A stretch of DNA of 64,000 nt from a virus. Below, one piece after another: positions 28,401 through 63,967 of this stretch (the stretch's first letter is position 1; every line of letters starts with the position of its first letter). The notes below the pieces were generated by a model. The model was not told the origin of the DNA. It searched no databases and saw only the letters and a program-made list of their open reading frames with translations. Where the stretch lies: IMG/VR virus record IMGVR_UViG_3300027816_004420, positions 85,632 to 149,631 of that record; one strand, written 5' to 3'. The translations under genes were made by a program, and so were the position numbers.

Positions 28401-31400
28401 GTAAAAACACTATTTATCGTTCCTTGAGGTATTTGACTTTGATTTGGTAATGCCTTGTTAAGCTTAGCCAATAGGTCATTCAAGAAATTACTTTGTAATA
28501 ATTCCTCAGAATTTAGTAAATCCTGTAGAGCGTTCTTGAACTGAGCGACGGTAGAATTTGGATTACTCAACTTATAAGTTGCATACATCTTTATTATAGG
28601 ACTCAGTATTGTAACGTTGGGTAAGGTAAATTCGATGTTGTTATCTATGAAGAAATCAGTTATGTAAGAACCATTCGAAGAATACTCAACACTCGGTATG
28701 GATGAGAATCCAACTTCAAGTTCCAAAGCTAACCAAGCATCAACATTTTGTGTCTTTGAAAGAGTCAATGTTGTTGACCCGCCTATACTCGGTAAAGAAC
28801 CTTGAACATATGGTTGAAATTGTATAGGGTCAGTAACCTCAGGTTGTCCACCATGTGAAAGGTAGGAATCCAAAGTTCTTCTCTTGTAATTTGAAGGATT
28901 TCCATATTTAAAAAGAACATCATATTCCATGAAGGCTCTGAGTGTGTTCTGAGAATTTGAATATTGTAAATTTATAACTTCGTTGAAATACTCTGTTTCA
29001 TTTGTTGCCGGAAGTTGTGGAATCACGGTAATCAAACTTTTGAATAAGGATTGGAAGTTTCTAAAATTAATATCACCTGATACTGAGGTTTCACCAATAC
29101 CAAGATTTGTTGGTGCTGTATCTGCATCAGTAATTGGCTTACAGAAGTTTAAAAACTCTTGTTCAAAACTATCTAATATTTTTTTATCGAAAACCGAAAA
29201 AATCTCTTCAATGTTCGAATACTCATTAGAATCTAATAATATGAATGGTGATTGTTCGTCAGTGTTAGGTAAAATTCTATTAACGTATTGTTCTGGAGTT
29301 GGTTTGACAACCGCTGAACCGTCAAAATACCCATAGTTAGGAGCCGACCACATTGTTCTTACAGAACCGTTGTAAACCGCACTATTATTATTTAAATTAA
29401 CAACTGTACTTGATTGATTATTTGTATTTACAATACACTCGTCTGATGTTTGGTTAACGGAAGAACCGAAGGATGGAACAACAAAATAAATTGTTTGTTT
29501 CGTCACACTATCAGTTCCACAATTTTCCTCAGTAGATGAAATCCCACCAGGGATTAGAACGGACCAAGTTGTAAGTCTCAGAACTTTATCTTCCTGTTGG
29601 GTTTGTATATTCGATTGAACGTAGTTGTAGACTTTCATACCACCTTTAATGGTGTTCTGAATTTCGGCATTTGTATAGTCTTTATATACATCATAACCTA
29701 TACAAAACTTATAAAAATCATTTATCACTTTAGGGTAAAATCCAACCTGTAGATTCACATTAGTTGTATCTGTTTTTTCCAAAGCAATTTCTCTATCAGC
29801 AGTTCCATATTTGAATGAATAAGTTTGACTTGGAGAGTTCTGTATTGGCGAAAAGTTTTGAACTTGATTAAAATTTGTCCACGCTGTTTGTAATATATCT
29901 GTATTCGATTGCTTGTAGACTTTGTATCTATGCCATATCGAACCAAATTTCAAAATCCAAGCATAGGGTAGTTTGTGAATTGCACCAAATTTTTTGAAAC
30001 ATGATGCAATATAATCTAAATCAGTTTGGGCACCATTGGCTTGTGTTTTATATTTTTCTCTCAAGGAAGCTAAAGGTAAAGAATTTATAAAAAGATAACC
30101 TGCTTGAACGTATGGATACGCTAAGCTCGCTCTTTGGTTCTGAACCCCATTCTGTATTGCATTAACAAAATATGGTGTGTTCAACATTGACGTAGTTGTC
30201 AATCTCGGAAACTCGTTTTCTAACGGGACATCTTCAGAAAAAGTTGGTGGGGTGTGAATATAGTAACCCTCGGTCGCCATGAAGTCAATCGGGGTTCTCG
30301 TTTGATAAAAAGAACTCAAACTAACATCATTGTCAGCCAAATCAGTAACTGTTGAATTAGGGTTGTCATTTTTTAGATATGAAAAATTTGTAACTGGTCT
30401 TTTTTCATTGACGTTATAAATGTTGTTGAAATTTGATATTATTTTTCTAGCGTCAAAAATTGTAAGAACTCGGTTGGTGTTATATACTTCATCCAAAGTT
30501 GACCCATCTCCGTTCGATAAATTTTTTATATTCCACTGAGGGTCCGTGAAAGGGATAGTATCTGTCACATTTGGTATGTTCGTTGAATTTGTTACCAAAC
30601 TTTCCAATGCTAAAGACTGTGCTGTGGATTGAGGTAGCTTACCCTGTTCATCTAAATTCAGAATTGCAAATGAATTTTCAGTCAAATTTCTCAAGTATGG
30701 TGTTACATAAAAATCCCTAATAAAATCTTGCCATGCTCTTCCAGTCCCTTGGTTTGATATGTTCTCCAAAAATGACAAATAATTACTTGAGTTAATTGCG
30801 TAATTCTTCAACTTCATTGTTATGTATGGAGAATTTAATCCTAAACTTTTAACAATATTGTTAACTTCTGTTTCTGTATTTAACTTAATTAACTCATCTA
30901 TTTGATTTTGATTAGCCCTAATGTAATTAGAGTATCTCGATGTTACCAATTGTCTTTCATAGATTTCATAGAAGAACTTAATCTCTTCTTTATTAGTGTA
31001 TGCAACCCCAACTGTTGGAAATTCAATTGCGTTAATGTTAATAAGATTTGTTTCTATTTGGTTGTCTAAAGGTGGCGGCGCTAATGGGGGATTAAATTTC
31101 ATGGTGAGACCTCTCATATATTCTTCCACAAATTGCACCTCTGGCCATTTAGAATAGTCCCAACCTCCCGTTAACTCAACAACAGTCGGGTCTGCAATAT
31201 ATTTGAGTTGGAATCTACCTTTTTTATCCTCCGGTGTTTCAACAAAAAACTGTGGCCATGGGTAAACAGGTATTTCAGCGTATTTTAAACCTGTTGAACT
31301 TTCAATCGCTTGTCTTGTTATTTTAATTTCATCAACGGTATCTGAACCAGGTGCTGACGATGGATTTTCTAGAATCGCCTTTTTTCTGACATCATCATAT

Positions 31401-56926: not shown

Positions 56927-57304
56927 TCAACAACACGCAGTTTCGGAAATGAAACTTGGTTGAATATTAATATAAAGTTGTTCTCTGATTGGAAGAATTA
57001 AATTTCCTTCATCATTTTTGATTAAGAATTGTCCTTCGTATCTTCCTGGCGTATCAGTATCTCTCGAAGTAAATTTGAAATAAATGTAGTATTCTGCAGG
57101 AGCACCAGGGTCCAAAATGAGATTAACTATTTCACATGGGGCTGAAACTATTTTTGGAATCCCAGTCTCATAATCTATCATAGTGAAATATATTGTGGAA
57201 ACCTCCAACGCTTCCATAAACTGAATATACCCCGCTCTACCGTCTTTTACGACTTGCATTTTCAAAACTGGTAACGTAGCATTTTGTTTGATATAAAATT
57301 CCAT
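56927..57304 (-). CDS. Small beta-rich protein, BppU N-terminal-like
   Basis: A 125-residue protein. The pattern FYIKQNATLPVLKMQVVKDG, then a Phe/Met strand, then GRYEGQFLIKNDEGNLILPI and closing LYINIQPSF follows the N-terminal Ig-like domain of BppU-type baseplate adaptor proteins, which anchor fibres or receptor-binding proteins. It ends in Cys-Cys. It is the last gene of the fibre/glycosylation block and has its own TATTTAT motif 4 bases before the ATG. An adaptor for the Thr/Pro-rich fibre is plausible. Confidence 0.45.
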   Translation of the reverse strand: MEFYIKQNATLPVLKMQVVKDGRAGYIQFMEALEVSTIYFTMIDYETGIPKIVSAPCEIVNLILDPGAPAEYYIYFKFTSRDTDTPGRYEGQFLIKNDEGNLILPIREQLYINIQPSFISETACC

Positions 57305-57320: not shown

Positions 57321-58994
57321 TTAGGACTCTTTACGTAACTCTCTGTTGTAATGTTCGAAACGGTCGTGTTCAGTTGGTGTCATTAGAAGTAAACCAGGAT
57401 TTAATTTTTCTTCTTTTGTCAGTTGATACATATGACTCATCCACGTTTGTTCAAATGGATGTGCCCAAGTAACATCCAAAAACATTTTTTTGTTACCTGG
57501 TCTTGAAATAATTTGAGGCCAGTTACAATAATATATGTCGCCTGTCGCATATGGAACTTTTCTGTGTGAAAGAACTTTTTTGAACTCTGTCTTTGGCGCA
57601 TTCGGGTCCAATCCTATTTGTGGTAATCTTGGATTTAAGGGCCAATACTTTGACCTAACATCTTGAGGAACATTATACCAAGACCATTGAGTCCCGTTAT
57701 CTCCGTAGAATTCAGAATAATTCAATTTTAAGAAATCAAAGTTTTCCTTTTGCATTATTTGCATCGAGATTGAAAATAGATTTGGTTCGTATCTTGAAAA
57801 ACCGTTTTTACATTTCGAACCTTCATTCGGATAAAAAAACATGTCATCTTCAAAAAACAAATAATAATCCAAATCTGTTTCTTCAAAATGTTCTGCAATC
57901 CACTGCCTTCCTCCACAAATACCCAAGTTATCTTTTTTGATATGTTCAAAATTATATTCATCACAAAGTTGTTTATACTCTTCTGTTGTTGACAAATCAC
58001 TTGAGTTATCAAGTAAGAATTTTTTTGTTTTAAGTATGAATTCTTTATCATACATTAACATTGAATTAATCAACGTTTTGAATTGGTTTGGACTATTGAA
58101 AGTTATAACATATAGACCAACTTTGTTAATATCCAAATTTGAAACTTGTCTATGAACTGATTCTGTTTTTACTTTCAAATCATCGTTCTTCAAATCCTCA
58201 AAAAATTTACCTAACAAACCATTTGATTCTATTTCAAAATAATTTATTAACTCGGAGTGTCTATAACACATTATGCTGAATAAAGATTCTTCAGTTCCCA
58301 TATATCCCGAATCCAAGGTTTCTTTCATCAGAGAATAATATATTGAATTGATTTCTGATATTGAGTGTTTTGGTCCACCGAAGAACCCACCTCTAGCAAC
58401 CCTCTCAACTTTAGCACCTGCCATAGAGTTCATCTTATCGAAATTGAACCCGTGGACTTCTGTATTAGCTTCATAAGGAAAACAAACGAAACTGAATTTG
58501 GAGATATATTTTACTAATTTATCCAAAACCTTGTCGTGTGTAAAGTAACCAGGATGCACAGTATTTGTCAACCCACCGTCAATCCAAAACAGATATTCTG
58601 AATCAAACCTATCCATTATTTTTGCATCATTCAAAAGATAAACTTTTGACATAACCAACGGGTTATAGTTTTCCAATCTCGATTGAGTTGAATCTTTTAA
58701 CCAACCAACTTGATTATACCACTCAGGGTTATTTCTTATGTTTTGGATTTTATCAAAAAATTCATTATTCCTGAACCAAGACATGTCTCTTACAATAAAT
58801 TGTGTATTTGACTTATCCCTTTTTGAAAAAACAAATTCCTCTAAACTTTTATCACCATAGATAATCATATTGGTATTGACATCCAATAGTTTTTCAAATT
58901 TATCCAAATAATGTTGAAAAGGTCTTGACCAACCTTCACTTAAATCACCTCTTCCGATGTCCCAAATTCCTGTTACAAGTGTTATATTACTCAT
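57321..58994 (-). CDS. Two-domain glycosyltransferase (HtrL/YibB-like plus GT2-like)
   Basis: A 557-residue protein. Residues about 1-280 start LVTGIWDIGRGDLSEGWSRP and contain FWIDGGLTNTVHPG (137-150) and GGFFGGPKHS, the pattern of HtrL/YibB-type glycosyltransferases. Residues about 290-557 form a second domain with VGLYVITFNSPNQF and FFEDDMFF (about 380), a DxD-type site of a GT2-like fold. It overlaps the upstream glycosyltransferase by 8 bases. A two-headed enzyme could add successive sugars to the same acceptor. The likely acceptor is the Thr/Pro-rich protein of the same cluster, but host glycans remain possible. Confidence 0.7.
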   Translation of the reverse strand: MSNITLVTGIWDIGRGDLSEGWSRPFQHYLDKFEKLLDVNTNMIIYGDKSLEEFVFSKRDKSNTQFIVRDMSWFRNNEFFDKIQNIRNNPEWYNQVGWLKDSTQSRLENYNPLVMSKVYLLNDAKIMDRFDSEYLFWIDGGLTNTVHPGYFTHDKVLDKLVKYISKFSFVCFPYEANTEVHGFNFDKMNSMAGAKVERVARGGFFGGPKHSISEINSIYYSLMKETLDSGYMGTEESLFSIMCYRHSELINYFEIESNGLLGKFFEDLKNDDLKVKTESVHRQVSNLDINKVGLYVITFNSPNQFKTLINSMLMYDKEFILKTKKFLLDNSSDLSTTEEYKQLCDEYNFEHIKKDNLGICGGRQWIAEHFEETDLDYYLFFEDDMFFYPNEGSKCKNGFSRYEPNLFSISMQIMQKENFDFLKLNYSEFYGDNGTQWSWYNVPQDVRSKYWPLNPRLPQIGLDPNAPKTEFKKVLSHRKVPYATGDIYYCNWPQIISRPGNKKMFLDVTWAHPFEQTWMSHMYQLTKEEKLNPGLLLMTPTEHDRFEHYNRELRKES

Positions 58995-59871
58995 AAATTC
59001 TTTTAAATTCTTCTAATATTTTATAGAAACTTTTATTTTTCTGAAATAACTCATCTGTTACACCTTGAGGTGCATTATCCCTGCACCACCAAATATCAAA
59101 ATGTTTTCTCTCAAATAACTCAATATGATTGAAATACATAAGAGTCATTATTTGTTCTTCATGAGGTAAACCCTCATCGTTAGATAAAACTTCTTGGACA
59201 TAGTTTTCGAATATATTGACTATATTATCCCACTTGTCCCTGTGACCACCAAACAATCCTCCTATGATATGAATACTTCTATCATAATTTTTATACCATC
59301 TTGGACTTACAGTTCCTGACCAATAGTTTCTTTCATTTTCTTTTCCTAAAATTAAAAATTTGTCTTTAGTGTCTTCTATCAAATTTTTCAAAAAATCATT
59401 ATCAAACAAATTGCTTTCATAAAATCTTCTTAAGGCATGTTTTGTTTCAGTCAAATACTTGAGAGGTATTAAACCACAATGGGATAATCCCGCGTCTATC
59501 CAATAATAGTTATCGTAGGATTTATCCTCATTCCACCACCATGAAAATTTAGAATATTGTATTTCGATACATCTATCCCCTCTTTTAATCTCATCGACAT
59601 TTTTTCTCGAATCAATTAAATGTTTAAACTTGGAATTTGAAATATCGTATGTTGTAAATTTCAACTTGGATTCTGGTATATTGTTTTCTTCATAGAAAAA
59701 TTTCTTTAGGGAATCTATTTCTCTATCCGAGGTATAACATAAAAAATCCGCATCGGTCATCTTCAATAATGACAATAAACTATATCTATAGTGGGCACCT
59801 CTGTTAGGTCTACCACCAAATTCAGTTCCATAAAGGTCACTATAAATTGCGGTTATAAACTTAGTTGACAT
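58987..59871 (-). CDS. HtrL/YibB-like glycosyltransferase
   Basis: A 294-residue protein similar in layout to the N-terminal half of its downstream neighbour: YYWIDAGLSHCG (122-133) and IIGGLFGGHRDKWDNI. This shared pattern suggests the two genes arose by duplication. The family transfers sugars in LPS or capsule synthesis in bacteria. It overlaps both neighbours by 8-11 bases, so the whole set is translated as one unit. No membrane anchor is visible, so it should act in the cytosol. Confidence 0.65.
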   Translation of the reverse strand: MSTKFITAIYSDLYGTEFGGRPNRGAHYRYSLLSLLKMTDADFLCYTSDREIDSLKKFFYEENNIPESKLKFTTYDISNSKFKHLIDSRKNVDEIKRGDRCIEIQYSKFSWWWNEDKSYDNYYWIDAGLSHCGLIPLKYLTETKHALRRFYESNLFDNDFLKNLIEDTKDKFLILGKENERNYWSGTVSPRWYKNYDRSIHIIGGLFGGHRDKWDNIVNIFENYVQEVLSNDEGLPHEEQIMTLMYFNHIELFERKHFDIWWCRDNAPQGVTDELFQKNKSFYKILEEFKRIYE

Positions 59872-60604
59872 TATAAGGTAAATATTTTTTTTCTGTTTTC
59901 ATTTTTTTATTTTCTGATTCATTCAAAAATCTGTGATTAATCTTGATTGGTGAATAGACATTCCAATTGTATGTTTGGGCGTAGAAATTGTTATACATTC
60001 CCTGCGACACATCAGAATAAGAATTTTTCTGAGGGGCAATTGGTAAGATTGGTGCATATGATTGAATTGAAGGATACACATGTTTTACCAATTGTTCATC
60101 AATAGGAATGATAAAATCACCACTATAAAAACACTTATCTTTAATTTTTTCTATTTTTTCGAAAGATGATTCATCGTATATCAGAATATTTGTTGCGAAA
60201 GTTTCGGTCAATCTTTCATGTGGTTTTGGAGGTAAGTTTGTCAAATCCAAAAGCATACTGTATTTTTCACTGACGTTCATTGGACGATTGAGTGTTGGAG
60301 AAAGATTCAATACACCAAAATCAATTCCATTTATATTTCTCTCCAAATCCTCAATGAAATTTTTTGCATAAGGCATAAATACACAATCATCTTCTATCAC
60401 CATTACTCTCTTGTAACCTCTTTCTTTAGCCATTTCAATTATTGACAAATGAGAAAGAGCACAACCCATATAATCGTTACGTGGAACAGCCTTAAACAAA
60501 TCGTAATCCCAACCGATGTAATTCATCTCGAACTTTATATCTTCAAGTCTGTCAGGTCTACTTTCCAAATTTATAACAAATTTTGGTATGTCTTTGAAAA
60601 TCAT
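59861..60604 (-). CDS. Glycosyltransferase family 25-like protein
   Basis: A 247-residue protein. The start FVINLESRPDRLEDIKFEMN, the helix GCALSHLSIIEMAKERG and the strand MVIEDDCVFM (Glu71-Asp72-Asp73) are the GT25 signature, best known from LPS galactosyltransferases and from the collagen hydroxylysine galactosyltransferases. The C-terminal 60 residues are less conserved. One-base overlap with the upstream gene couples their translation. Confidence 0.82.
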   Translation of the reverse strand: MIFKDIPKFVINLESRPDRLEDIKFEMNYIGWDYDLFKAVPRNDYMGCALSHLSIIEMAKERGYKRVMVIEDDCVFMPYAKNFIEDLERNINGIDFGVLNLSPTLNRPMNVSEKYSMLLDLTNLPPKPHERLTETFATNILIYDESSFEKIEKIKDKCFYSGDFIIPIDEQLVKHVYPSIQSYAPILPIAPQKNSYSDVSQGMYNNFYAQTYNWNVYSPIKINHRFLNESENKKMKTEKKYLPYNVN

Positions 60605-61878
60605 TAGCTTACAACATTATGATTTAATTGTCCAGTGATTCTATCACACCATCCTTTTGATACCGAGTGAGGCCAAACAACCCAATATGTGGGAGTAACG
60701 TCCGTTTGAAATTCTCTCCAAATCTTACAATATTTGTCAGGGTCTCTCATATAACCAGCAATTTCATTTTTGTCGGAGTCCTTTCTGAATAAAGTTTCGT
60801 CGTTAGGTCCGTGGAAAGCCACAACCCAAAAATCATAATCCGTTTCAGGAACCTGTGAGTATCCAATATCTATACAATGTTTGAATACCTTAGCAAAATC
60901 ATTTTTCCAATCTTCCTCTGATGAATAGTTATATGGGTTTGGAGGATAATTCTTATCGAGTGTATATTTTTGAACAGCTCTCTTTTCAAATAAAATACCA
61001 GCATACTTCTCATATTCTCTTAAAGTTCTCACAGGACCAAAACCATAAGGTCCATCATGACCCTCTTGGGTTTCACCATCCATACCAAAAAGTTTTCTGT
61101 TGGTCAAATGGGATACTTTGTTTTTCTCACCCCAAGTTTTGTCATCATCCCATTGTTTTGTCCTACCCTTACGTGTGTATTCATGATAGACAACAGGAAT
61201 GTGAGGGTGAAATAAATCATAACCCCATGTGTAAGCTCTAGCTGCAATTGAGATTTCTTCTCCGTGGAAGTAATATTCAGGATTGTGTTGGACTTCTAGA
61301 GAAAACTGACCCAAAGTAAAACAAAAATGTGCAGAATAAAATCTCGCTGTTACGGGTTTTGTCATCTCTCTCCAACCAGGAATTGTTTCAGGGAGAAAAA
61401 ACACAGCACCCTCAGGAATGAATCTATCAAATGCCATTCTCCAAGCATCTTGTGCCCTTCCCGCTGGGTCATTTTCAGGGTCAAAGGAGGGCACATAACC
61501 CGTAAGTAGAGGTTTTTCATACCCATCCTTTTGTAGACCCTTAATCATTTTTATTAATATTTCATCCCAATCCTTTACAAATCTCATGTGGGAATCAATT
61601 TGCATTGTGTATCCTTCACCATCGTAAAGTTGTTGGGTTAAGTTTCTTGCCCAACAAACGCCTCTAGATTCTTGATAAGGTATATCTAAAATCTTGAATC
61701 TTTTATCTTCTCTAAACTCATCTAAGTTGTCAAATCCATCTGTTTCACTAAATTGTCTTGCGATTGAGAAAACCAAGTTCTTTGGTTTTTTAGCGTTTGC
61801 AATCATATCTTTGAGTGTTGGAACTAACTGTGGGTCCCTGTATGATGCGATTTGAATAAAAATTTTACTGTTAGACAT
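60604..61878 (-). CDS. GlcNAc transferase-like glycosyltransferase (GT60-type)
   Basis: A 424-residue protein. IFIQIASYRDPQLVPTLKDM, the SRGVCWARN segment and QIDSHMRF (DxH at 95-97) match the GlcNAc family, whose characterised eukaryotic members (GT60) add GlcNAc to hydroxyproline of Skp1 or to Ser/Thr. HGEEISIAARAYTWGYDLFH near residue 225 is the conserved late motif. The C-terminal 130 residues are an extra domain. It is the first gene after the terminator that follows the Thr/Pro-rich protein, and starts a run of four overlapping transferases. It would add the first sugar if the acceptor is that protein. Confidence 0.8.
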   Translation of the reverse strand: MSNSKIFIQIASYRDPQLVPTLKDMIANAKKPKNLVFSIARQFSETDGFDNLDEFREDKRFKILDIPYQESRGVCWARNLTQQLYDGEGYTMQIDSHMRFVKDWDEILIKMIKGLQKDGYEKPLLTGYVPSFDPENDPAGRAQDAWRMAFDRFIPEGAVFFLPETIPGWREMTKPVTARFYSAHFCFTLGQFSLEVQHNPEYYFHGEEISIAARAYTWGYDLFHPHIPVVYHEYTRKGRTKQWDDDKTWGEKNKVSHLTNRKLFGMDGETQEGHDGPYGFGPVRTLREYEKYAGILFEKRAVQKYTLDKNYPPNPYNYSSEEDWKNDFAKVFKHCIDIGYSQVPETDYDFWVVAFHGPNDETLFRKDSDKNEIAGYMRDPDKYCKIWREFQTDVTPTYWVVWPHSVSKGWCDRITGQLNHNVVS

Positions 61879-61901
61879 ATTATCTTTTTGTCTAAAAATA
61901 A

Positions 61902-61929
61902 AAAACCCTCCACGAAAGTAGAGGGTTTT
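61902..61929 (-). terminator. Rho-independent terminator after Thr/Pro-rich gene
   Basis: A stem AAAACCCTC/GAGGGTTTT that extends to 12 bp only on the minus-strand RNA (a U-G pair plus two more pairs, UUUC loop). A TTTTTTATTTTT tail follows. This asymmetry shows it works for the minus strand. It separates the Thr/Pro-rich gene from the glycosyltransferases. Confidence 0.88.
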
Positions 61930-61948
61930 ATCTTTATTATTTTTAAAT

Positions 61949-63967
61949 TTAATCTGTAAGTGTGATTTTTGCTACATCTGTATCTTGTAAAGGAACTCCA
62001 CCACTAGTTAATCCAATCATTGATGGTGGGATTGTTGACCCTGAATATAAGAACGACCCATTAAGTTCAACTATAAAATTAACAGGAGTTCCTGTTATAG
62101 AAGCTCTTGGATTACCGAATGTTAGACCGTGTAGTGCTGTAAAAGTTTGACCTGATGTTACAGGTAAAGCTCCTGATAGATTGGTAAGTGTTATACTTCC
62201 ACCATCATCAACAAAATCTATAATTTCCGCTCCACCTGTTGATTCGTTAACCGCTATGATTTCGGGACAAATAAGAGTTCCTGTTATTTCACCGTTAGTT
62301 AATTCCCATCCGCCACCGCCAAGTAAGTTAAGCCATCCTGATGGATAAATATCTGAGAAAGATGCCCCACTAAATATGATATCATTCGGATATGACGGTT
62401 GATTATAGTAATAAGAAGTTGTCGAAGTTCCTCCTGAACAAGCGTCCAATCCAGACACTGTTGAAAATTTAGTTGCACCAATTAATGCGAAAGTTCCTGG
62501 TGTTTCAGTAGGTGTTGGTGTGTATGTTGCAGTTTGAGATGGTGTTTGAGTTGGAGTTTCTGTGTTGGTTGGTGTTTGAGTTGGAGTTTCTGTGTTGGTT
62601 GGTGTTTGAGTTGTTGTTGGTGTTGGTGATGATATTGGTGTAGATGTTGAAGTCACTGTAGGTGTCGGTGTCGGTAAGTTCGAACATCCGTTAGGGTCGG
62701 AACTTGTAATCAATCCTGCTCCACCGCTAACAATAAACCAAGCAATCCCATTAGAATAATAACCATCAATAACAGGAACTGTCAGAGCTGTATTTTGATA
62801 AAGTGACTCACCAACGTTTGGACCTACTCCACCCGCTACAGTTCCGTAGACAGGATTAGTTGAACCCAAACAAGCTTCATTCGGAGTTGAACCTGAACCT
62901 AAATTATATGTATAGTATCCAAATGTTGCTGTTGGTGTTGTAGTTGGAGTCGGTGTTGGTGTTTCAGTTGGAGATGCGGTTACAGTTGCTGTTGGTGTTG
63001 GAACAACCAAACAAGAACTGAATGCACCCACTTGAGCACCATTCGAATCTATTTCTGTTACAATATTTGAACTGTTATAAAAACCTGCCAACATTGTTGA
63101 CGGACCAAAACTTTCAGGATAGAATTGTGTGCAGTTATCGAAAAGAACCGCATTACCCCAAATATTTCCAACTATTCCTGAAGAACATGCTTCATTCTCA
63201 GTTGAACCTGAACCTACTGAAAACTCAAATCTTACTGGTGTCGGTGTAGGTGTTGGAGTTTGAGTTGGTGTTTCTGTGTTAGTTGGAGTTGGTGTAGGTG
63301 TTTGACTTGAAGTAGGAGTTGGTGTTGGACCACAATTTCCATCAACTGTAATTGTAGCTCCCGTAATACAACCTGGTCCACAACCAGAAGCAACTATGTA
63401 AATAATACCATCTTCAGTATAATAACCTTCCGGATTACCTGTATTTGGACCTGTAGCATCTGACCAAACTAATGTTGAATCCGCCAAACTTGTTCCATTT
63501 ACAAATATGTTTGCTGTTTGAACACAATCACAAGTTAGTAATATATCCGTCTCATCGTGACATCTCACAATAGCAGTTCTCTCAACGTTTGTAGGTGTTG
63601 GAGTTTGCGTTGGAGTTTCCGTGTTAGTCGGAGTCTGTGTGAACGTTGGAGTATTTGTCGGTGTTTCTGACGCAGTTGGTGTCTGAGTATTGGTTGGTGT
63701 TGTTGTAGGCGTTGCAGTGTTCGAAGGTGTTTGAGTCGGACTAGATGTCGGAGTAGGTGTGGGTCCAGTTGGTGGGAACGCACCCATATTTTGGAGAACG
63801 ATTGTTGTATTCGCCGTGGAATATGTTCCATCTATCAACCAAATGTTTTTTACCTGATTTGGTTCTAATTCTACTTGGTAATCCCACATTGAATCTTCGC
63901 ATCTTCTATAGTTGAAAGTTGCTATTGTGGAACCTGTGTTTGTTAAAATATATTTACTACAAGCCAT
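61949..63967 (-). CDS. Mucin-like Thr/Pro-rich modular virion protein
   Basis: A 672-residue protein alternating folded domains with Thr/Pro linkers. Linkers lie near residues 68-128, 214-244, 325-350 and 436-500 and are built from TPTPT, TNTETPTQTP and similar repeats. Folded parts are the N-terminus (1-67), a Cys-rich domain (129-213), two related domains (about 245-324 and 351-435, both with GSGST-x-NEAC and a closing Cys) and a C-terminal beta domain (500-672). Such linkers are typical O-glycosylation sites. No signal peptide or membrane segment is present, and a TATTTATA motif lies 13 bases before the ATG, so it is probably a late virion fibre or decoration protein. Receptor binding is inferred. 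Confidence 0.7.
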   Translation of the reverse strand: MACSKYILTNTGSTIATFNYRRCEDSMWDYQVELEPNQVKNIWLIDGTYSTANTTIVLQNMGAFPPTGPTPTPTSSPTQTPSNTATPTTTPTNTQTPTASETPTNTPTFTQTPTNTETPTQTPTPTNVERTAIVRCHDETDILLTCDCVQTANIFVNGTSLADSTLVWSDATGPNTGNPEGYYTEDGIIYIVASGCGPGCITGATITVDGNCGPTPTPTSSQTPTPTPTNTETPTQTPTPTPTPVRFEFSVGSGSTENEACSSGIVGNIWGNAVLFDNCTQFYPESFGPSTMLAGFYNSSNIVTEIDSNGAQVGAFSSCLVVPTPTATVTASPTETPTPTPTTTPTATFGYYTYNLGSGSTPNEACLGSTNPVYGTVAGGVGPNVGESLYQNTALTVPVIDGYYSNGIAWFIVSGGAGLITSSDPNGCSNLPTPTPTVTSTSTPISSPTPTTTQTPTNTETPTQTPTNTETPTQTPSQTATYTPTPTETPGTFALIGATKFSTVSGLDACSGGTSTTSYYYNQPSYPNDIIFSGASFSDIYPSGWLNLLGGGGWELTNGEITGTLICPEIIAVNESTGGAEIIDFVDDGGSITLTNLSGALPVTSGQTFTALHGLTFGNPRASITGTPVNFIVELNGSFLYSGSTIPPSMIGLTSGGVPLQDTDVAKITLTD
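62541..62610 (-). repeat. 30-bp tandem repeat in Thr/Pro linker
   Basis: A 30-base unit is repeated perfectly at 62541-62570 and 62571-62600, with ten more bases of a third copy. It encodes TNTETPTQTP-type repeats. In-frame unit loss or gain would change linker length without breaking the protein. Similar but diverged units occur at about 63240-63310 and 63590-63740. Confidence 0.85.

Follow-up and report, generated by a model that had tools for sequence, protein, structure and literature searches.

A GT60-led glycosyltransferase cassette next to a Thr/Pro-rich protein gene in a jumbo phage: a candidate mucin-type O-glycosylation system for virion proteins

We analysed a 64,000-nt stretch of viral DNA (the window), which is part of a ~321-kb aquatic (freshwater) jumbo phage, and observed that the gene of a mucin-like protein, TP672, is followed by a cassette of glycosyltransferase genes (Table 1). 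We consider it likely that this cassette encodes a mucin-type O-glycosylation system of the phage's own, which works in the cytoplasm and modifies the Thr/Pro linkers of virion proteins. At least three phage lineages that evolved separately show the pairing of a GT60-family enzyme with Thr/Pro proteins, and this suggests that such viruses cover their particles with sugars. An earlier note on this DNA had described a 672-residue protein with four Thr/Pro linkers followed by four overlapping glycosyltransferase genes on one strand, and we found all five ORFs as placed there, with overlaps of 1, 11 and 8 nt in the order GT60, GT25, 294-aa and 557-aa protein.

Table 1. Features of the TP672 and glycosyltransferase region (window coordinates)
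Feature	Position	Strand	Description
TP672	61949..63967	-	672 aa; candidate O-glycan acceptor; upstream neighbour of GT60 in relatives
Intrinsic terminator	61902..61929	-	12-bp stem, T tail; between TP672 and the enzyme operon
GT60-family glycosyltransferase	60604..61878	-	PF11397; putative initiating polypeptide O-glycosyltransferase
GT25-family glycosyltransferase	59861..60604	-	PF01755, E 1.3e-12; in exchangeable middle cassette
294-aa GT-A fold protein	58987..59871	-	Remote HtrL/YibB kin; in exchangeable middle cassette
Tandem glycosyltransferase, 557 aa	57321..58994	-	HtrL_YibB N-terminal domain and second GT-A; conserved right cassette border
125-aa conserved protein	56927..57304	-	Follows the tandem enzyme; found in most relatives whose sequence covers this place

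The dense Thr/Ser and Pro domains by which mucin-type acceptors are recognized are present in TP672 as its four linkers (residues ~48–135, 198–263, 314–364 and 412–500), which lie between Cys-containing globular modules of ~70–80 aa. The linkers have no Asp, and their DNA carries short, mostly diverged tandem repeats. Among the 47 window ORFs of at least 100 aa, only TP672 has a Thr/Pro stretch of this kind. The whole genome (G001) encodes nine mucin-like ORFs including TP672, and its proteome has 2233 mucin-like residues, against 0 in 20 whole-proteome shuffles. In Pfam and PHROG, TP672 matched no known virion family except the low-complexity phrog_15511, and the other Thr/Pro proteins were annotated only with SprB repeats and this same family. 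As a query against cultured phages TP672 gave no match, low complexity being masked in that search.

The GT60-like and GT25-like assignments of the earlier note were both confirmed. The GT60 ORF matched PF11397 (GlcNAc transferase) with 224 bits (cut-off 21, E 4.6e-66) and phrog_24687, 'glycosyltransferase', with E 5e-164. Its DxH motif (D94-S95-H96), which takes the place of the metal-binding DxD, was invariant in an alignment with 14 relatives, and its dN/dS of 0.062, equal to that of the DNA polymerase (0.065), indicated purifying selection. The protein is predicted to be soluble; a search of solved structures with the GT60 profile found none. DxH and polypeptide O-glycosylation are common to GT60 and GT27 (PMC7185993). 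Within GT60, TcOGNT1 makes GlcNAc-alpha-Thr, starting the O-glycans on T. cruzi mucins (PMC9472816), and the acceptor of Gnt1 is a hydroxyproline of Skp1 (PMC6939170). The phage enzyme shares its Pfam/CAZy family and DxH with TcOGNT1 and with the Skp1 Gnt1 of Dictyostelium and Toxoplasma, and the proposed phage system resembles theirs in having Thr-rich or Pro-containing polypeptide acceptors and later glycosyltransferases that extend the first sugar. However, the phage enzyme is putative and has no secretory pathway, and the genes after it encode GT25, HtrL-type and second GT-A domains, whereas the eukaryotes use other elongation enzymes.

Of the two HtrL/YibB-like enzymes claimed for the region, the 557-aa protein proved to be one: its residues 3–252 matched PF09612 (HtrL_YibB) with 77.3 bits (cut-off 24.1, E 1.9e-21). 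The 294-aa protein had no credible match in Pfam and did not reach the PF09612 cut-off, and only a remote kinship stood, in which its profile aligned with the HtrL part of the 557-aa protein (hhalign probability 97.4, E 1.3e-11). Its AlphaFold model has a GT-A fold (pLDDT 92.5). The model of the 557-aa protein has two domains, GT-A/GT-A, and its best structural neighbours were LH3, ColGalT1, K4 chondroitin polymerase and LARGE1.

The sole Pfam or PHROG match of the C-terminal half of the 557-aa protein was the phage glucosyltransferase phrog_842 (beta-glucosyl-HMC-alpha-glucosyltransferase; E 7e-5). This half and GT25 show weak similarity to phrog_842 and TAGT (TET-associated GT), as might be expected if the enzymes decorated hypermodified phage DNA to block restriction. 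DNA polymerase B is encoded two genes away, and the available part of a paper on moraphages puts DNA glucosylation first among the roles of their core glycosyltransferases (PMC12619734). We nevertheless regard DNA as a very improbable target. Each tested genome had one thymidylate-synthase-family gene, that of G001 resembling an ordinary ThyA by reading of the sequence only, and no Tet_JBP match was found, though the control of that search was silent. DNA modification also does not predict a pairing with Thr/Pro proteins, and we know of no DNA activity of GT60.

TP672 and the enzymes had further been described as one block. They are indeed neighbours, but a terminator lies between them, and the block is longer than was claimed: it continues shortly past the window end with a 211-aa ORF and a second mucin-like protein, of 1309 aa. 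A terminator-like hairpin was found between the Thr/Pro gene and GT60 in 48 of 53 distinct relatives, compared with 16 of 1060 random windows, and its stem sequences differed from relative to relative. Because this terminator is conserved, the adjacent TP672 gene and enzyme operon probably do not share a transcript. The 125-aa protein has a dN/dS of 0.059, and its membership of the glycosylation system is uncertain.

The earlier note had proposed a search of related phages for co-occurrence of the Thr/Pro protein and the transferases, and such co-occurrence was found in the close relatives and in two further, separately derived lineages. A mucin-like domain was present upstream of GT60 in 53/53 relatives (loci with at least 2.5 kb of sequence there). 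On a marine contig, L148, a lone GT60 gene is preceded, at a distance of 16 nt, by that of a 402-aa Thr/Pro protein, and in the third lineage a mucin ORF lay at most two genes from GT60 in 41 of 66 loci (19.4 expected). In the GT60 tree the phage enzymes fell into three groups, each next to bacterial enzymes of a different group; judged from these sequences, GT60 is an enzyme captured at least three times by phages, from different bacteria and each time alongside Thr/Pro proteins. GT60 was also found in 16 of 44 viral contigs with Thr/Pro proteins and in 0 of 35 random contigs (Fisher p=1.9e-5). Seven jumbo genomes with GT60 had 5–72 Thr/Pro motifs each, and the GT60-free jumbo phages RaK2, Atu_ph07 and SCTP-2 had 0. 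At the level of sequence comparison across phages, the pairing of enzyme and Thr/Pro protein is therefore well supported.

Counting against the proposed system, contig L145 carries both GT60 and the tandem enzyme but lacks a Thr/Pro protein within 10 kb, and 28 of the 44 contigs have Thr/Pro proteins without GT60, PF09612 being present in 0/28 of these. Since Thr/Pro proteins occur without GT60 or HtrL, the linkers do not require the cassette. We rejected the idea that other glycosyltransferases generally accompany the GT60-free Thr/Pro proteins, as GT2 enzymes (PF00535) were not enriched with them (6/25 vs 5/25), although genome G019 has a glycan cluster of ~14 genes of its own. The occurrence of Thr/Pro proteins without GT60, together with the terminator between the two genes, would fit enzymes that glycosylate other virion parts, the linkers being plain flexible spacers. 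Known glycans of mycobacteriophage virions are on the C-termini of capsid and tail-tube proteins (Freeman et al. 2023, cited in PMC12619734). These phages, too, encode glycosyltransferases whose action on virion proteins is demonstrated or supposed; however, their acceptors are capsid and tail tube, and GT60 and mucin-like Thr/Pro linkers are unmentioned in the available part of that source (PMC12619734). We consider such a target unlikely here, given that GT60 and Thr/Pro proteins occur together in three separately derived lineages and are jointly absent in RaK2, Atu_ph07 and SCTP-2, and that the precedent of the GT60 family is Thr in mucins.

The linker reading is also consistent with the distant cultured Xanthomonas phage XacN1, which has only 24 of 407 ORFs in common with G001. 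The best two matches were GT60 (48.7%), which is ORF334 of XacN1, and then the tandem enzyme (41%). The genes of GT60, a 286-aa HtrL-like protein and the tandem GT-A enzyme are homologous and kept in order, but a carbamoyltransferase stands in place of GT25 and the genome is otherwise unrelated. At least two virion glycoproteins were reported for XacN1; in the available part of that paper they are not identified, the Thr/Pro ORF numbers are not named in the virion proteome, and only ORF328 and ORF334 are reported as glycosyltransferases, neither linked to Thr/Pro proteins (PMC5852040). Taken together, co-occurrence, GT60 family precedent and the XacN1 glycoproteins lend partial support to the O-glycosylation system proposed in the earlier note. 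In the note's version the acceptors would be virion fibres, and the glycans would perhaps mask them or tune receptor binding. Its dedication to TP672 alone is probably wrong, with nine mucin-like ORFs in G001 and over a dozen Thr/Pro-rich ORFs in XacN1.

The lineage of the window is probably that of the moraphages, large phages of aquatic habitats that encode PolB and share four core orthogroups of glycosyltransferases; the available part of their description mentions neither acceptor proteins nor GT60 (PMC12619734). PolB of the window lineage matches Salinibacter phages, which is only consistent with a moraphage placement. The host lineage may be Bacteroidota. The general protein O-glycosylation of Bacteroidota relies on a D-S/T motif and on periplasmic, lipid-linked transfer. 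It resembles the proposed phage system in placing O-glycans on Ser/Thr and in having fucosyltransferases in the loci, but in the phage the linkers lack Asp and GT60 is predicted to be soluble.

Phages exchange the genes that lie between those of GT60 and the tandem enzyme. Across genomes, this middle cassette contained GT10, GT11, GT7-like and PLOD-type glycosyltransferases, FkbM and rhamnosyl-type O-methyltransferases and a carbamoyltransferase. Such variable glycosyltransferase and methyltransferase cassettes look like O-antigen tailoring sets, and temperate phages are known to carry glycosyltransferases that alter the O-antigen or capsule glycans on the host surface, to exclude superinfection or change the serotype (PMC12619734, available part). 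We find this role highly unlikely, as the jumbo phages are apparently lytic, the cassettes showed no flippase, polymerase or lipid-carrier enzyme, the GT60 family acts on polypeptides, and GT60 is conserved as DNA polymerase is, unlike accessory genes.

For the virion-protein system we infer the sugar identity, acceptor, virion location and purpose as follows. In the cytoplasm of the infected cell, GT60 would start the glycan on linker Thr of newly made virion appendage proteins, with alpha-GlcNAc or another, related HexNAc as the probable first sugar. These proteins would be TP672, the neighbouring 1309-aa protein and the remaining mucin-like proteins that the genome encodes. Hydroxyproline in the linkers would be a possible alternative target. 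We rejected prolyl hydroxylation as a component of the system: 2OG-Fe(II) oxygenases are present in G001–G003 (three) and absent from XacN1 and RAS14, and it is therefore not required. GT25, the 294-aa protein and the tandem enzyme would then lengthen and cap the glycan. Elsewhere the middle genes are replaced by fucosyltransferases, O-methyltransferases or a carbamoyltransferase, and from a conserved start each phage would therefore make a glycan of its own. With glycans along their dense Thr/Pro stretches, the linkers between the globular modules would become hydrated, stiff stalks that resist proteases and vary on their outer surface.

Phages with glycosylated virions are known, and the GT60/mucin-like acceptor type appears to be undescribed. 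If the proposal is true, phages carry out on their own virions a type of O-glycosylation, the mucin type, that is regarded as eukaryotic, and they use for it a dedicated start enzyme together with tailoring genes that can be exchanged. The abundance of Thr/Pro linkers in giant-phage proteins would then have an explanation, virion glycans would have a means to vary, and a compact, soluble machinery would be at hand for O-glycosylating proteins in bacteria.

More tentatively, and with somewhat less than even confidence, GT60-led cassettes could be a general mucin-type O-glycosylation module common to bacteria and phages, which phages acquired on at least three occasions, always together with Thr/Pro mucin-like proteins, which includes an exchangeable glycan-tailoring cassette, and which is related to giant phage mucins of >5000 residues. 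In bacteria the targets would be Ser/Thr/Pro proteins that are glycosylated in the cytoplasm and then exported by Tat. An enrichment of Tat signals beside bacterial GT60 was rejected; there were suggestive examples, but the strict count was 4/335 vs 2/505 (p=0.18). The local association of bacterial GT60 with Thr/Pro proteins was weak at the strict threshold (6 vs 3.3 expected, p=0.06). Bacterial loci with GT60 and the tandem enzyme adjoin signal-bearing Ser/Thr/Pro-rich proteins.

We confirmed the order and strand of the five ORFs proposed in the earlier note, including the 672-aa protein with four Thr/Pro linkers (TP672), which is the only such ORF among the 47 in the window; shuffled proteomes contained no mucin-like stretches. 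Co-occurrence in related phages was also borne out. A GT60 query against viral contigs gave 371 relatives, and among the best 80 of these a mucin-like domain preceded GT60 in all 53 having at least 2.5 kb of upstream sequence. The candidate acceptor and the enzymes had been placed in one block, and this holds for adjacency, order and strand; however, a 12-bp terminator hairpin lies between TP672 and GT60. A terminator-like hairpin, of varying stem sequence, is conserved at this position in 48 of 53 distinct relatives, compared with 16 of 1060 random windows, and therefore the candidate acceptor and enzyme genes are probably transcribed separately. Outside the window, on the upstream side, are an ORF of 211 aa and another mucin-like protein (1309 aa), and the complete genome of the window phage (G001) has nine mucin-like ORFs. 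In two near-identical assemblies (L007 and L009) the Thr/Pro ORFs are broken up or joined, probably by assembly errors within the repeats.

The GT60 (PF11397) and GT25 (PF01755) assignments were both above the curated cut-offs, and the DxH motif is present in the window GT60. Of the two proteins called HtrL/YibB-like, the 557-aa enzyme passes the curated cut-off of PF09612 with its N-terminal half, but the 294-aa protein matched no Pfam family; it gave a profile match to the HtrL part of the 557-aa protein and a GT-A fold in a structure model. The extra domain of the 557-aa protein, described as GT2-like, is by model a second GT-A domain, the whole being predicted as a GT-A/GT-A tandem (mean pLDDT 78, pTM 0.56, domain packing uncertain). 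Its structural neighbours are LH3, ColGalT1, chondroitin polymerase and LARGE1.

GT60 identity among the relatives was 85–90%, a figure favoured by the sampling. The dN/dS of GT60 (0.062) equals that of the DNA polymerase (0.065), with values of 0.097 for the tandem enzyme, 0.15 for the 294-aa protein and 0.196 for GT25. An adjoining 125-aa protein is also strongly conserved (0.059). Between GT60 and the tandem enzyme, gene content is exchanged among relatives: GT25 and the 294-aa protein in most genomes, and 5–8 other genes in ∼16, including GT10 and GT11 fucosyltransferases, GT7-like and PLOD-type glycosyltransferases, and FkbM-type and rhamnosyl-type O-methyltransferases. A NodU/CmcH-type carbamoyltransferase occurs in the cultured phages XacN1, CM1 and RAS14; a G001 gene pair distant from the glycosyltransferases is homologous to the one within the XacN1 cassette. 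Constant first and last enzymes around a variable middle look like a glycan-typing cassette.

Features outside the five-gene block
Feature	Source	Coordinates (strand)	Remark
Ser/Thr/Pro-rich protein by bacterial GT60	L491	6504-7649	twin-arginine-like signal
Ser/Thr/Pro-rich protein by bacterial GT60	L498	6947-7735	twin-arginine-like signal
Ser/Thr/Pro-rich protein by bacterial GT60	L499	7488-7919	twin-arginine-like signal
Ser/Thr/Pro-rich protein by bacterial GT60	L497	7164-7883	twin-arginine-like signal
Ser/Thr/Pro-rich protein by bacterial GT60	L529	4480-4980	twin-arginine-like signal
Ser/Thr/Pro-rich protein by bacterial GT60	L534	10042-10521	twin-arginine-like signal
2OG-Fe(II) oxygenase genes	G001	28772-29065; 152970-153233; 162023-162214	PF13640, prolyl hydroxylase-like
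Two adjoining carbamoyltransferase-like genes	G001	143465-146729 (+)	
949-aa Thr/Pro protein	G001	305338-308187 (-)	SprB repeats (Bacteroidota adhesin repeat)
125-aa unknown protein	window	56927-57304 (-)	between tandem enzyme and DNA polymerase
5472-aa ORF	G019	109840-126256 (-)	45% Thr, 20% Pro, 14% Asn

The motif TPTxTPTxT occurs in 5–72 copies in each of seven GT60-bearing jumbo genomes, and in 0 copies in RaK2, Atu_ph07 and SCTP-2, where tblastn found no GT60. PF11397 was detected in 16 of 44 viral contigs picked for Thr/Pro runs (one near copy of the window excluded) and, above cut-off, in 0 of 35 random contigs (Fisher p=1.9e-5, which is optimistic because contigs are non-independent and the Thr/Pro set is longer). 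The 28 Thr/Pro contigs without GT60 had no HtrL. GT2 enzymes were not enriched in them, so the presence of Thr/Pro linkers is not in itself a sign of glycosylation. Locally, contig L145 is an exception, with the cassette but no Thr/Pro protein within 10 kb. A 202-kb relative sharing 103 ORFs with the window phage (G019; IMGVR_UViG_3300031787_000004, L417/L418) lacks GT60 and has a glycan cluster of ∼14 genes at 68.4–80.5 kb; its 5472-aa ORF consists almost wholly of Thr/Pro repeats with diverged underlying DNA units.

G001 and the distant Xanthomonas phage XacN1 have only 24 of 407 ORFs in common, among which GT60 and the tandem enzyme are the top two by score genome-wide. More than a dozen XacN1 ORFs are rich in Thr/Pro, and several of these (ORF369-372) adjoin the tail sheath genes ORF367/368. 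A third lineage includes marine contig L148, in which a 402-aa Thr/Pro protein is followed after 16 nt by GT60, the only glycosyltransferase recognised there; of 66 loci in this lineage, 41 have a mucin ORF no more than two genes away from GT60 (19.4 expected). In the GT60 tree the phages form three groups, each beside different bacteria: Saprospiraceae/Bacteroidia (support 94), Neisseriaceae/Burkholderiaceae (99) and Verrucomicrobiaceae (100). The tree came from a quick search and has long bacterial branches, so that exact sister groups are provisional; its topology implies that phages would have captured GT60 at least three times.

Pairs of GT60 and tandem enzyme were found in Saprospiraceae (68% and 62% identity), in Gemmatimonadota and, with a carbamoyltransferase in between as in XacN1, in Jiulongibacter. 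At six bacterial loci, most with the tandem enzyme, a Ser/Thr/Pro-rich protein neighbours GT60 (divergently in L491 and L498; one protein has a T9SS-like C-terminus); the bacterial association is statistically weak. Two contigs filed as Planctomycetaceae and Gammaproteobacteria MAGs (L500 and L526) carry GT60 with phage-like Thr/Pro proteins starting MACELYIL (MACSKYIL in the window), and are probably misbinned phage DNA.

GT60 enzymes initiate O-glycans on polypeptides, as GlcNAc-alpha-Thr on T. cruzi mucins (PMC9472816) and as GlcNAc on hydroxyproline of the cytosolic protein Skp1 (PMC6939170), and share DxH with GT27, the family that starts animal mucin glycans (PMC7185993). For XacN1, the original study reports at least two virion glycoproteins, attributed to ORF328 and ORF334 (PMC5852040); ORF334 is GT60. 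Therefore, the cassette is best explained as a system that O-glycosylates the Thr/Pro linkers of virion appendage proteins in the cytoplasm, where we infer acceptor, sugar and virion location. GT60 would act first, on the linkers, and the remaining enzymes would lengthen and cap the glycan. Other virion acceptors are possible. As to phage DNA as the substrate instead, the sole TS-family gene in G001 is ThyA-like, and a TET/JBP search gave no match, but neither did its control. As to modification of the host surface, the cassettes showed no genes of the lipid-carrier, flippase or polymerase kind. That phage enzymes glycosylate virions is already known; the open-licence literature searched yielded no GT60-led mucin-type system that has Thr/Pro acceptors. 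The three oxygenase genes, which XacN1 and RAS14 lack, occur in G001 and relatives; glycans could be attached at hydroxyproline.

The window is the terminal 64 kb of a 149.6-kb IMG/VR record, and comes from a jumbo phage, because three near-identical records (L005, L006 and L010) reach 317–321 kb. This phage has T4-like tail parts (tail sheath, tail tube and baseplate wedge), helicases, RNR and a DNA polymerase B with ∼23–25% similarity to Salinibacter phages. Moraphages, described in 2025, have four core glycosyltransferase orthogroups (PMC12619734), and on its four glycosyltransferases the window phage is probably one of them. The SprB repeats in the 949-aa protein of G001 hint at a Bacteroidota host.
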